A DNA stretch of 64,000 nucleotides from Nitrosococcus watsonii C-113 (GTDB lineage Bacteria > Pseudomonadota > Gammaproteobacteria > Nitrosococcales > Nitrosococcaceae). The stretch spans positions 496,001 to 560,000 of the forward strand of contig NC_014315.1 of the NCBI RefSeq assembly GCF_000143085.1, written 5' to 3'. Below are positions 16,286-21,111 of the stretch, in pieces. Below the pieces are notes generated by a model. The model worked only from the letters and a program-made list of their open reading frames with translations. It did not search any database and was not told where the DNA came from. Both the position numbers and the translations under genes were made by a program. How positions within the stretch are numbered: position 1 is the first letter of the stretch; each line of letters opens with the position of its first letter.

Positions 16286-17449
16286 TCAGCCGCAGAATTT
16301 TTTAGAATTTCGTGGATGACGGAATATGAGTGGTTTGTTCTTGTTTGCCGGTAAAGGTGTTTGTTGGTGAGCTGCGGTAATAGTGTCTACTACGGTCGGA
16401 TGGTGGGGCGACAGGTCACAGACGGGATCGGTATTACGGGCATCGCCCGTCAATAAATAGGCTTGGCAGCGGCATCCTCCAAAGTCCTTGAAACGCTCGG
16501 GACAGCTTCGGCAAGGTTCCTTCATCCATCCTTGGCCCCGGAATACATTAAAGTCTGGTGATTCATGCCAGATCCACTCAATACTATGGTTTTTTACATT
16601 GGGTAAGGTGAGGCCGGGTAGCTGGCGGGCAGCGTGGCAGGGAAGGGCGGTTCCATCCGGAGCGATGGTGAGAAAAATATTTCCCCAACCATTCATGCAG
16701 GGCTTGGGGCGGTTCTCGTAATAATCCGGCACCACATAATAAATCTTCATTTTCCCCCCCATGCGGGCTTGGTATTGGTGGGCTAGAGCTTCGGCCCGTT
16801 TTAGCTGTTCGCGGGTGGGGAGTAAGCGGTTTCGGTTATGCCAGGCCCAGCCATAATACTGGGTAGTGGCTAATTCCACGTAGTCGGCCTTGAGTTCGAT
16901 GGCAAGATCCAGAATTTCTCCTATCTGGTCGATGTTATAGCGATGGAGAACAAAGCATAGCACCATGGGATAGCCGTGTTTTTTCACGGCCCGGGCCATG
17001 GCCAGTTTATGTTGAAAAACATCCGCGCTGGCAAGTTGGTTATTGAGGTTTTCGGAAGCAGCCTGGAAACTAATCTGGATATGGTCAAGACGAGCAGTTT
17101 TAAAAGCCGCAATCCGGTCTTCGTCCATGCCAACGCCAGAGGTAATGAGATTAGTGTAATAACCAAGTTTACGGGCTTCGGTGATGAGTACTTCTAGATC
17201 ACGCCGCGCTAGAGGTTCGCCACCAGAAAATCCTAGCTGAGCGGCTCCCATGGCCCGGGCCTCGTGAAATACCCGCAACCAATCTTCAGTAGAGAGTTCG
17301 TACTTGTGTTTAGCAAAGTCTAAGGGATTAGAACAGTAAGGACATTGCAGAGGGCAGGCGTAGGTGAGTCCCGCTAGCAGCCATAGAGGCTGTGTTCTTG
17401 TATTGTCATTAAAACGATTAATTTTCGGTGGAGAGCCAGCCATTACCAT
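16286..17449 (-). CDS. pqqE: PqqA peptide cyclase (radical SAM)
   Basis: The 387-residue protein has the N-terminal radical SAM motif CPLQCPYCS (Cys32, 36, 39) and a C-terminal SPASM region with multiple Cys ([23 protein letters not shown]) binding auxiliary clusters. PqqE makes the carbon-carbon bond between the Glu and Tyr side chains of PqqA, the first step of pyrroloquinoline quinone synthesis. It overlaps pqqD by 32 nt, consistent with the known need for PqqD as peptide chaperone. It is the last gene of the minus-strand pqqABCDE unit. Confidence 0.96.
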
Positions 17450-17687
17450 AAGCAGTCTCTAAAAATTCGCGCACATCATTTGCTAAGTTTGCTTGCGGGT
17501 ATTGTTCCTGTAGCAACGCAATAATAGCGTTGATGCTTAGCTTGCCGTTGCAATGTTTGAGTATTTCCCCGGCGCTGAGGTTCAGTTTAATCATGCCTTC
17601 TGGATAGAGGAGAACATAACAATCCTGTGCCTCTTCCCATTGGAAGCGGTAGGGAGGTGCGATGGTAGGGATGTCGTTATCATGCAT
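17418..17687 (-). CDS. pqqD: PQQ synthesis protein D, PqqA-binding chaperone
   Basis: An 89-residue RiPP recognition element protein of the PqqD family: [26 protein letters not shown] (winged-helix beta strands) followed by [10 protein letters not shown] helix regions. PqqD binds the PqqA precursor peptide and presents it to PqqE. It starts 9 nt after pqqC and its 3' end overlaps pqqE by 32 nt, so the three proteins are probably made in a coupled fashion. Confidence 0.95.
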
Positions 17688-17696
17688 GGATCTAGG

Positions 17697-18419
17697 TTAA
17701 AACTCCGTGTGATAGGGAGGACGATTTTCAATGTACGCCATCCAGAGGGCATCCAGCAGAGTCCATAGTACATCCAGCTTAAACTGTAAGATGGCTAGTG
17801 CCCGTTCCTGTTGGGCGCGGCTTTGAAAGTAATCTAGGGTCGTTTCTAGGCCGTGTCGGACATCCCGCCGGGCCTCGCTGAGACGCTTGCGAAAATAATG
17901 GTAGCCTTTCGCTTTAATCCAGGGGTAATAGCGGGGCCAGTTGTCTAATCGTTGTTGATGGAGGGAAGGGGCAAATAGCTCCGTAAGAGAAGAGCAGACG
18001 GCTTCCTGCCAGGTAGCGTGGCGGGCAAAGTTGACATAAGCGTCAACGGCAAAGCGTACTCCGGGCAGAACTTGCCGCTGGGATTCCAGCGTTTCCCGGC
18101 TTAAGCCCACGGCATCGCCTAGCTGAAGCCAGGCTTCGATGCCTCCTACGTCTTCGCCATAACCATCATGATCCAGAATTCGCTGTACCCATTGGCGCCG
18201 CACTGATCGCTGGGAGCAATTGGCCAGGATGGCAGCATCCTTGAGAGGGATGCAGGTATGGTAATAAAAGCGGTTGGCTACCCATCCTTGAACCTGATAC
18301 TGGTTCAGCTTGCCGCTATTCATTAATACCTGGAAGGGGTGGTGAATGTGGTAGAAGCATTCTTTTTCCCGCAGCTTCTGCTCGAATTCCTCGCGGCTCC
18401 AGGGGGGTTGTTCCGTCAC
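17697..18419 (-). CDS. pqqC: Pyrroloquinoline-quinone synthase
   Basis: The 240-residue all-helical protein matches Pqq[21 protein letters not shown] at the N-terminus, [21 protein letters not shown], and a [24 protein letters not shown] segment. This cofactorless oxidase carries out the final eight-electron oxidation and ring closure to PQQ. The active-site His and Tyr/Arg-rich segments are present. It sits 17 nt after pqqB. Confidence 0.96.
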
Positions 18420-18436: not shown

Positions 18437-19366
18437 CTAGAGGGTAATTTCCATACCGTCAAAGGCCACTTGGATGCCGGCCGCTTCCAATTGGGTTCGT
18501 TCAGGCGATTTTTCATCGAGGATCGGGTTGGTGTTATTAATATGAATGAGTATCTTCCGGAGATTAGTAAGGGGAGCCAGGACGCTCATCATGCCTCCCG
18601 GGCCAGATTGGGGAAGATGGCCCATCTCGGTGGCGCGTTTCTGGGTAATGCCGGCCTGTTCCATCTCATCCTCGGTCCAAAAAGTGCCATCTATCAGTAG
18701 GCAATCGGCTTTTTCCATCAGAGAGAGGACATGATCTTCGATTTGCCCTAGACCTGGCGCATAAAATAAGTTTTTCTGGGTAGCTGGATCTTCAAGCCGC
18801 AGGCCGATGGTATCTCCTACATGATAATTGTGACGATGGGGGGAGTAAGGGGGCGCTTCGCTGCGCAGGGGCACCGGCGTTAAGCGTAACCCTGCAATGC
18901 CCTCCACCTGAAAGTCCTCGCCTGGAGCATCTCCCTGTGGCAGCCGAATGGGATGCCAGTTTACTGTGCAGTAATGATCCAGCACTTTGAACAGAGGATT
19001 ACCGGTAGTGAGATCCTGATGGACGGATTCAGTGCAGTATACATCTAAAGGCCGGTGATGTTCCCGCAGCATCAGCAGCCCCGTGGTATGATCGATCTGG
19101 CTATCCAGCAGCACAATACCGCGAATGCCAGTATCCCGTAGTGCCCGACCCGGCTGAATAGCAGGAAAATGCTGGAGCTGTCCTAAAATATCCGGGGAGG
19201 TATTAAAAAGTACCCAGTCAGTGCCATTGGTGCTGGCTGCAATCGAGGATTGGGTCCGTGCCTGCCCCTTGAATTTGCCTTTGCGCAGGCGATTGCAGTT
19301 GTGGCAATTGCAGTTCCACTGGGGAAAACCTCCCCCCGCACCTGATCCTAGAACATGGATTAACAT
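18437..19366 (-). CDS. pqqB: PQQ biosynthesis protein B (metallo-beta-lactamase fold)
   Basis: The 309-residue protein begins [19 protein letters not shown] and has the metallo-beta-lactamase-fold pattern with a [10 protein letters not shown] segment and [13 protein letters not shown] metal-site-like region. PqqB acts as an iron-dependent hydroxylase on a Glu-Tyr intermediate. The start at 19366 fits the family; a longer frame to 19489 would read through the pqqA-pqqB stem-loop and into pqqA. It is 73 nt downstream of pqqA, with a strong hairpin in between. Confidence 0.95.
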
Positions 19367-19390
19367 TGCTTTGTTGGTTGAGGAAGCGAA

Positions 19391-19426
19391 AAGTCTCGCT
19401 TGGAATAGGGCTTCCAAGCGAGACTT
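19391..19426 (-). promoter_or_regulatory. Stem-loop between pqqA and pqqB
   Basis: A perfect 15-bp inverted repeat (AAGTCTCGCTTGGAA at 19391-19405, complement at 19412-19426) with a 6-nt loop. On the minus strand it begins 13 nt after the pqqA stop and is followed by CTTTTCGCTT-type sequence rather than a clean T run. That suits a partial terminator or 3' mRNA stabiliser giving excess pqqA transcript over pqqBCDE. Confidence 0.8.
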
Positions 19427-19439
19427 TACTTCTACTTGG

Positions 19440-19511
19440 TTACCGTTGGTAAATATACATGGTAACTTCGAAGCCAAAGCGCAGTTCACAATATGCAGGT
19501 TTTATCCACAT
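19440..19511 (-). CDS. pqqA: PQQ precursor peptide PqqA (23 residues)
   Basis: A 23-codon frame beginning [16 protein letters not shown] and ending in MYIYQR then TAA. It has the family hallmark Glu-x-x-x-Tyr in FEVTMY, whose Glu and Tyr are the carbon source of PQQ. A GGAG ribosome binding site lies 7 nt upstream of the ATG. It is the first gene of the pqq unit. The start and surrounding W-x-K-P motif match known PqqA peptides. This gene is short enough to be missed by standard gene callers. Confidence 0.95.
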
Positions 19512-19665
19512 AATTTCATCTCCTTTACTAGCACCCAGCTAATATCATAGTTATATTTTCAGTGAAATTCACTAGCGCTTGCATCATGGACCTTTATCGT
19601 TGCTCGTAGGCGAACGAACAAGCAGCGCAAATGACAGTGAGAGAGGTTTTGGCTGGTAAAGCGAA

Positions 19666-21111
19666 TCAAGTATTTTCCCCGGCATCGATTTCCCTTTGTA
19701 GCTGCCGCAGGCGAGCTTCGATTTTGGAGCGCTGATAGAAATTATCATTTGCTGTTTTGTTAGCTAATTGTAACTGTTTAATTGCCCTTTCAGTCTGCCC
19801 ATTGTAATAGTAGTATTCCGCTAGCCAGCGGTGAGACTCTGCCTGGCTGCCAGCATCCCCTTCTGCTTGGGCAAGTAAGTGGTAAAGGCGTCCTGTGGCG
19901 GCGCCTAATTGCACCTGGCGTCTTAGTAAGTCCCGTGCGGTTTGGGGACGATGGCCCTGCAATAAAGCGCTGGCGTAGTTGACTACGACAGCGTAGTCGT
20001 CTGGGTATAATTTTTGGGCGCTCTCATAGATTTCGAAGGCGGTTTTAAAACGGCCGGCGGCCACCTCCACCTGGGCGAGAGCGAGTCGGTAGGTCCGATT
20101 ATCACCGTTTTTTTCAAGTAACTTTAGAATTTGTTGCCGCGCCTTGCGAGGTTCTCCATTTTCTACTAAGGCAAGGGCGTAACCATAACGGGTGGCTGCT
20201 TCGTTTACGTAACGGCCGGTTTCTAAGGCCTGGCTAAACTGGTGTGCCGTCTGCGCGTAATTATCACTGGTTAGCACCTGGAGTTTAGCGCGCGCGAGGT
20301 GAAACTGGGGATACTCCTTGACGGGTTGAGGACTTAGAGTTTGGGCCCGGCCCATTGCATCGGCAATACGGTTGGTAGTCACCGGGTGGGTGCTAAGGAA
20401 TTCCGGCGGCCGGGTCCCATAGTAACGACTTGCCTGCTGAAGACGCTCGAAGAAAGCAGGCATAGCGAAAGGGTCGAAGCCAGACCGTACCAGGGTTTGC
20501 ATGCCGACTCGATCTGCCTCTTTTTCATTGGATCGGGTGAAGTTAATTTGAAGCTGAGCAGCACCTGCTTGGACAGCGGCCAGTCCAGCAAGGCCGGCAT
20601 TAGGATTTTCGATCCCCAAGATAAGGGCGGCTACTAACGCGGCTGTCATGGGTAGACTTAAACGGCTGCGTTGTTCGAAAGCTCGCGCCAGGTGACGTTG
20701 GGTGACATGGGCAATTTCATGGGCCAGTACGGCTGCTAGCTCACTTTCGGTCTGGGAATTTTCCACGAGGCCGGAATGGATCCCGATATACCCCCCTGGG
20801 GCAGCAAAGGCATTAATAGTCGGATCCTGAACGACAAAAAAAGTGAATCCTTGTCCCGGATTATCGCTATTGGCGACCAATCGAAACCCCAGCGATTGGA
20901 TATAAGTCGTTATTTCCGGATCTTCAATAATGGTGACCGAATTACGCAGGCGGCGCATAAAGGCTTGCCCGATACTGCGTTCCTGTTCCGGCGATATGGC
21001 GACTCCAGAATGATCGCCGATTTCCGGTAACTCAATTTCATCGGCGCTTAGGGTGGGCGCTGTTAGTAAAATGACGCTCCATAAGACCGTGCTAAACAAC
21101 TGCACTCGCAA
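19666..21111 (-). CDS. bepA: Periplasmic M48 metalloprotease/chaperone with TPR domain
   Basis: The 481-residue protein has a signal peptide (about residues 1-23), an M48 peptidase domain with zinc motif HEIAH (His131, Glu132, His135) and the third ligand in NEKEADRVGM, and a C-terminal half of TPR repeats. This is the BepA (YfgC) layout. BepA helps assembly of LptD and degrades stalled outer-membrane proteins at the BAM complex. It stands alone on the minus strand, divergent from tusA. Confidence 0.9.
   Translation of the reverse strand: MRVQLFSTVLWSVILLTAPTLSADEIELPEIGDHSGVAISPEQERSIGQAFMRRLRNSVTIIEDPEITTYIQSLGFRLVANSDNPGQGFTFFVVQDPTINAFAAPGGYIGIHSGLVENSQTESELAAVLAHEIAHVTQRHLARAFEQRSRLSLPMTAALVAALILGIENPNAGLAGLAAVQAGAAQLQINFTRSNEKEADRVGMQTLVRSGFDPFAMPAFFERLQQASRYYGTRPPEFLSTHPVTTNRIADAMGRAQTLSPQPVKEYPQFHLARAKLQVLTSDNYAQTAHQFSQALETGRYVNEAATRYGYALALVENGEPRKARQQILKLLEKNGDNRTYRLALAQVEVAAGRFKTAFEIYESAQKLYPDDYAVVVNYASALLQGHRPQTARDLLRRQVQLGAATGRLYHLLAQAEGDAGSQAESHRWLAEYYYYNGQTERAIKQLQLANKTANDNFYQRSKIEARLRQLQREIDAGENT

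Follow-up and report, generated by a model that had tools for sequence, protein, structure and literature searches.

The window, by which we mean the whole 64,000-nucleotide stretch of Nitrosococcus watsonii C-113 DNA that was analyzed, carries a pqqABCDE operon. PqqA, B, C, D, and E follow one another in order on one strand, and each matches its NCBIfam equivalog over the cut-off (Table 1). The PqqE model match begins at residue 19, and the true pqqE start may lie further in than the listed start at 17449. As listed, pqqE overlaps pqqD by 32 nt (17418-17449, minus strand), which suggests either translational coupling or a later pqqE start. The pqqB frame, for its part, stays open upstream through the hairpin described below to a GTG within pqqA (19489-19367, minus strand). 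Formally, PqqB could begin further upstream; counted from the ATG at 19366, the match to its model sets in at residue 3.

The next gene upstream of pqqA on this strand (19666-21111, minus) encodes a BepA-like M48 metalloprotease with TPR repeats, which scores 446.7 bits where the BepA model requires 570. Over the 120 nt ahead of pqqA, ungapped identity among members of the genus is 19 to 58%, and with so little likeness the gene neighborhood may not be conserved. A whole-genome profile search returned this pqqA as the sole match over the cut-off. A second pqqA copy as the source of an excess was therefore rejected: the genome has none over the cut-off, with two weak matches at 13.2 bits. No PqqF scores over the cut-off in the whole genome (G000; best 38.2 bits, cut-off 320), so the search points to no PqqA-trimming protease there. 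At locus L292 (661-3225, minus strand), an 854-aa ORF with N-terminal hydrophobic stretches resembles PQQ enzymes, at 96 bits to TIGR03075, below the cut-off; it likely encodes a membrane-bound quinoprotein of the glucose dehydrogenase type, a PQQ user.

Table 1. Features of the pqq cluster and of the pqqA-pqqB spacer, in window coordinates
Feature	Coordinates	Strand	Evidence or remark
pqqA leader with strong Shine-Dalgarno AAAGGAGATG	19512..19531	-	Duplex -9.3 kcal/mol
pqqA, PQQ precursor peptide, 23 aa	19440..19511	-	TIGR02107, 41.4 bits (cut-off 20); PF08042, 45.4 bits (cut-off 21.1)
pqqA-pqqB spacer, 73 nt	19367..19439	-	
Terminator-like hairpin, perfect 16-bp stem, 6-nt loop	19390..19427	-	Same position in 4/4 genomes of the genus
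U-rich tail after stem core, UUUUCGCUU	19384..19392	-	UUUU invariant in 4/4 of the genus
pqqB	18437..19366	-	TIGR02108, 413.9 bits (cut-off 245)
pqqC	17697..18419	-	TIGR02111, 352.2 bits (cut-off 240)
pqqD	17418..17687	-	TIGR03859, 113.6 bits (cut-off 46)
pqqE, as listed	16286..17449	-	TIGR02109, 545 bits (cut-off 381.35)

The hairpin between pqqA and pqqB

An earlier note on this DNA had described a tiny pqqA of 23 codons followed by a stem-loop ahead of pqqB. Indeed, the TIGR02107 match, an inverted-repeat search, and the fold energy all agree with that description, and the stem is perfect as claimed, with a length of 16 bp and not 15 bp. Its arms span 19427-19412 and 19405-19390 (minus strand), and it is the only inverted repeat of at least 12 nt reported in 19200-19700. 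The whole 16-bp stem is stable, at -25.8 kcal/mol. The fold of 19450-19350 (minus strand) reaches -32.5 kcal/mol versus a shuffle mean of -14.05 (z of -6.2), and 0 of 200 shuffles are as low. The stem core begins about 15 nt after the pqqA stop, and the stem and the core end 23 nt and 26 nt, respectively, from the pqqB start codon.

The same note had found no clean T run behind the stem, which is wrong as stated, since UUUU directly follows the stem core, and all four genomes of the genus share it without change, as part of an invariant GAGAC-UUUU. The first three U residues of the tail can be counted to the stem as well, since they pair with the A tract at its base. When these base A-U pairs are taken as tail, a 12-bp core remains, GTCTCGCTTGGA...TCCAAGCGAGAC, with an energy of -20.7 kcal/mol; this is the core as scored. 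Directly after it comes TTTTCGCTTC, a moderate U tract; on a TransTerm-type sum, with a threshold of 3.5, this tail scores 4.3. By rough gene calls for this genome, a tail of at least 3.5 stands behind a stem at 11 of 86 convergent gene ends and, among 55 co-directional spacers 50-130 nt long, in 3; 1 of 60 shuffles has one. A simple terminator scan assigns the terminal A-U pairs to the stem and for that reason lists the pqqA stem for the plus (antisense) strand only.

Two other identities were considered for the hairpin. A REP-like dispersed repeat was ruled out, since genome-wide only the two arms themselves match at 0-1 mismatch; at up to 3 mismatches, an arm has 33 matches in the whole genome, and a backward control has 33 as well. 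A known RNA family was rejected too, with no Rfam match over the threshold in 19000-20000 (snoR28 reaches 22.1 bits versus a gathering threshold of 45, with E up to 1). The best fold pairs CAAAGC, which immediately precedes the pqqB start codon (19373-19368, minus strand), with GCUUUG in mid-pqqA; this predicted pairing could couple the translation of pqqA and pqqB. Locus L011 changes the pqqA side of this pairing (CGCTTCGGC).

The two genes also differ in their translation signals. No Shine-Dalgarno sequence was found before pqqB in the window, and across loci of all PqqA types pqqA has the stronger one in 191 of 218, as a raw count among these loci. The duplex energies were computed against an anti-Shine-Dalgarno string.

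pqqA-pqqB spacers of relatives

Loci with pqqB were taken from the order, class, and phylum to which the window belongs and from a named genome collection. This named set comprises the best 80 of 232 relatives and is for that reason rich in Methylococcales. Among 260 loci, 229 have pqqA within 700 nt before pqqB; for the other 31, no pqqA was found before pqqB (contig ends, perhaps motif misses, perhaps loci truly without pqqA). Once exact duplicates were dropped, 224 distinct spacers were left. Eight spacers of at most 25 nt (one with the gamma/beta type of PqqA, seven with another type) were kept out of the counts, as was a truncated pqqB match in G028. The gamma/beta type was separated from other PqqA types by locus set and PqqA C terminus, without a tree, and the counts ignore relatedness. 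A stem was called strong at -12 kcal/mol or better.

A strong stem is present in 175 of the 184 distinct gamma/beta-type spacers, which leaves 9 without one. In controls of the same lengths, it occurs in 27 of 184 segments inside pqqB, 14 of 145 after pqqB, and 22 of 182 before pqqA, and dinucleotide shuffles reach it in 1-10%, depending on the set. The U tail (score of at least 3.5) is found in 127 of the 184 spacers, versus 2/184 inside pqqB, 6/145 after pqqB, and 19/182 before pqqA; 18 of the 19 tails before pqqA are in the sister family. Broken down by set, the strong stem and the U tail occur, respectively, in 4/4 and 4/4 spacers of the genus, 40/41 and 22/41 of the sister family in the order, 68/70 and 63/70 of the named methylotroph-rich set (best 80 of 232), and 63/69 and 38/69 of the other gamma/beta-type loci. 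With other PqqA types, mostly outside the class, the stem shows no excess (13/32 spacers versus 11/32 for the control inside pqqB), and the U tail is present in 4/32.

A terminator score of the d'Aubenton-Carafa form is above 0 in 157 of the 184 gamma/beta-type spacers versus 36 of 920 shuffles. All four genus members are above 0, and the window scores 28.8. Across the wide gamma/beta-type set, at least one genome has the stem in 30 of 32 family codes, and the U tail appears in 19 of 32. Spacers of Methylococcales have the textbook form of a terminator, ending in about eight U residues, as in Methylotuvimicrobium buryatense 5G (L185), GGGGCTTGTAAGAGCCCCTTTTTTTT. From pqqA stop to stem, the set medians run from 12 to 24 nt; from the end of the core to the pqqB start, the median is 26.5 nt in the genus and 64.5 nt in the methylotroph-rich set (best 80 of 232).

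Closer to pqqB, the sister-family spacers of L037, L039, L053, and L056 have another stem, rich in A+T and about 16-19 bp long (such as TAAATCAGATGATTTT...). Family code f155, which belongs to the window's class, includes both kinds of PqqA: L094, L127, L128, L212, and L247 have an alpha-like PqqA and spacers of 7-35 nt (four of the five under 20 nt), and L112, L126, and L246 have the gamma/beta type and spacers of 68-152 nt. The presence of both types within f155 hints at transfer of the whole pqq cluster.

We then looked at how the stem pairs change. In the genus (four members), 91.9% of cells are paired, versus 22.6-54.8% when the partners are slid by one to three columns, and both partners have changed in 3 of 16 pairs. 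With four sequences the sample is small: as many double changes arise in 14 of 500 shuffles. In the sister family, taking all 41 spacers, 399 of 406 cells are paired, and changes on both sides occur in 9 of 10 pairs; L049 is the one spacer without the stem. Judged from these alignments, the stem is kept by compensatory changes.

The tail also has a preferred strand. Counted with full flanks on both sides, the sense tail scores higher than the antisense tail in 4/4 of the genus, 37/40 of the sister family, 65/68 of the named set (best 80 of 232), and 56/63 of the wide gamma/beta-type set; with other PqqA types, it does so in 7/13. The antisense tail reaches 3.5 too in 2/4 of the genus and in 56/68 of the named set (best 80 of 232). 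Since the antisense tail is frequently good, the bias is one of degree. This sense-side preference is a better fit to a putative terminator of the pqqA transcript than to a strand-neutral palindrome.

Expression evidence and readings of the hairpin

In the PQQ pathway, PqqA is consumed one for one as a substrate, and PqqB to PqqE are catalysts that turn over. Dosage control is therefore to be expected, which gives the arrangement found here a reason: a terminator-like stem lies between the precursor gene and the first enzyme gene, as in RiPP precursor operons. With a probability of roughly 70%, we read the hairpin as a leaky intrinsic (Rho-independent) terminator inside the pqqABCDE operon that sets the dosage of precursor to enzymes. 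Transcription from a putative upstream promoter would run through pqqA, and many polymerases would stop at the stem-loop and its short U tract. The stopped transcripts would be a short, abundant pqqA RNA with the hairpin at its 3' end. The remaining polymerases would read through and keep pqqB to pqqE at a low level, enough for catalysts. Translation would add a second layer, with a strong Shine-Dalgarno sequence for pqqA versus none for pqqB in the window. At the level of peptide and enzymes, the expected outcome would probably be a large excess of PqqA over the enzymes that process it.

Leakiness is what the short, moderate U tract leads one to expect. Furthermore, a simple scan detected no sense promoter-like site in 19360-19700, and downstream of the stem there is no room for a complete promoter before pqqB. 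With the core about 26 nt from pqqB and no sense promoter detected, read-through is the simplest source of pqqB to pqqE transcripts; were every polymerase to stop, the enzymes would be silenced.

Published transcript levels bear on this reading. Our survey includes family code f144, which we take to be Pseudomonas from its PqqA sequences. The U tail is present in 7 of its 19 spacers and absent in 12; several of its genomes have a spacer of the form CGCCTCGG...CCGGGGCG-TTTTTGTTTT or close to it. For Pseudomonas brassicacearum 3Re2-7, the excerpt of PMC6722718 gives RNA-seq values (log2 TPM) of 12.77 for pqqA, 6.86 for pqqB, 5.99 for pqqC, 6.32 for pqqD, and 5.96 for pqqE, at consecutive locus tags. 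The pqqA/pqqB step is thus about 60-fold, part of which could reflect RNA stability or a TPM length bias for a very short gene. In Methylosinus trichosporium OB3b (PMC3615186), pqqA is about 40-fold over pqqB, with the genes apart. The excerpt of PMC10112286 reports that an amsR mutant of Acinetobacter baumannii has pqqA down 31.8-fold with pqqBCDE unchanged. It also cites reports that PQQ depends little on the amount of pqqA, a point that tells against the stoichiometry argument. Three other partial texts add little: that of PMC3404531 has a table row without a pqqA value, that of PMC5665550 names pqqA only in a reference, and that of PMC5403930 holds nothing of help on the pqqA-pqqB question.

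The earlier note had proposed that the hairpin raises pqqA over pqqB to pqqE by partial termination or mRNA stabilization, and it had named conservation of the hairpin in relatives as a check. The conservation is there, in all four genus members and in most of the gamma/beta-type spacers. The direction of the proposal is supported by the stem and tail counts (175/184 and 127/184), the covariation, and the sense-side tail, and the step from pqqA to pqqB is present in the P. brassicacearum data of PMC6722718. What falls away is the premise of a missing T run.

An excess of pqqA would result as well if the stem were an RNA stabilizer. The pqqABCDE transcript would then be cut by RNase E, or ended by Rho, downstream; the stem would block 3'-5' exonucleases, and the pqqA piece would survive while pqqB to pqqE decay. 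Consistent with this, 57 of the 184 gamma/beta-type spacers, including the 12 from f144, have no tail of at least 3.5, most of them still with a strong stem, and many sister-family spacers end in GGGCAACGTT or GGGCATCTT. However, a stabilizer needs no U tract, and yet the tail is enriched (127/184) and is stronger on the sense side. Stabilization of the 3' end is doubtful as a general account but has to be taken seriously as a rival, most of all where a lineage lacks the U tract. It is also conceivable, if unlikely, that pqqA is a substrate gene and a leader-peptide-like sensor at once, where the speed with which ribosomes arrive at the stop codon would decide whether the stem forms. Leader-peptide attenuators of the trp type place a tiny ORF and a terminator-like stem ahead of biosynthetic genes, which is the layout seen here. 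Unlike theirs, the pqqA ORF is itself the substrate, and the stop-to-stem distance varies among sets (medians of 12-24 nt). If the sensor reading is true, Glu/Tyr supply or PqqA demand would tune read-through into pqqB to pqqE.

Control of pqqB translation, with the stem holding the start region or spacing pqqB from pqqA, would suit a pqqB that has no Shine-Dalgarno sequence in the window and a stem 23 nt from the start codon. Most of the predicted ensemble has positions -7 to -2 ahead of the ATG in pairs (unpaired 0.16-0.39); in the best fold their partner is a stretch of pqqA. The start codon lies outside the 16-bp stem, however, and positions -16 to -8 are largely unpaired (0.60-0.99). In the methylotroph-rich set, moreover, the median of 64.5 nt from core to pqqB is too far for direct blocking, and we consider this role very unlikely. 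The same 64.5 nt would be enough for a promoter, so that the hairpin could be a full terminator followed by a promoter of pqqB to pqqE's own. The genus leaves only about 26 nt, so that such a promoter would have to extend into the hairpin sequence, and the simple scan of the sense strand detected none; in the excerpt of PMC8102297, only PpqqA was active among Gluconobacter oxydans reporters. An arrangement of this kind is most improbable. Finally, other perfect inverted repeats of this length do exist in the genome, if rarely: 464 kb (the window plus 20 stretches of 20 kb) hold six with a stem of at least 16 bp and a loop of 3-10, the pqqA stem counted. A functionless chance palindrome is nevertheless contradicted by a position that is conserved despite changing sequence and by the compensatory changes, and we give it practically no credence.

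Known systems and significance

If the hairpin is a leaky terminator, it shares with intrinsic terminators in general a stable stem, U residues directly after it on the sense side, and an A tract before it; it differs from them in lying inside an operon and in its short U tract. Partial terminators between RiPP precursor and enzyme genes are known from lantibiotic operons such as nisA/nisB. There too a short precursor gene, a hairpin, and enzyme genes follow one another, and the arrangement serves precursor excess, as proposed here. In contrast to those products, PQQ is a redox cofactor and no bacteriocin, and the pqq element occurs in many families with differing stem sequences. The principle is known for RiPP precursor genes, and the pqqA-pqqB case adds an unusual breadth of conservation.

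A short pqqA transcript in M. extorquens was reportedly described by Ramamoorthi and Lidstrom in 1995, and that work may already touch on the pqqA-pqqB element. In searches of the open full-text literature, we found no description of a terminator-like stem between pqqA and pqqB. P. brassicacearum and M. trichosporium OB3b resemble the outcome proposed here in having pqqA RNA far above that of pqqB to pqqE. M. trichosporium OB3b differs in that its pqqA stands apart from pqqBCDE, so its excess needs no terminator.

The hairpin would give the expected dosage control a concrete sequence element. A stem so conserved is a testable candidate cause for the large step from pqqA to pqqB seen in RNA-seq, and it may be a part to tune in PQQ production strains.
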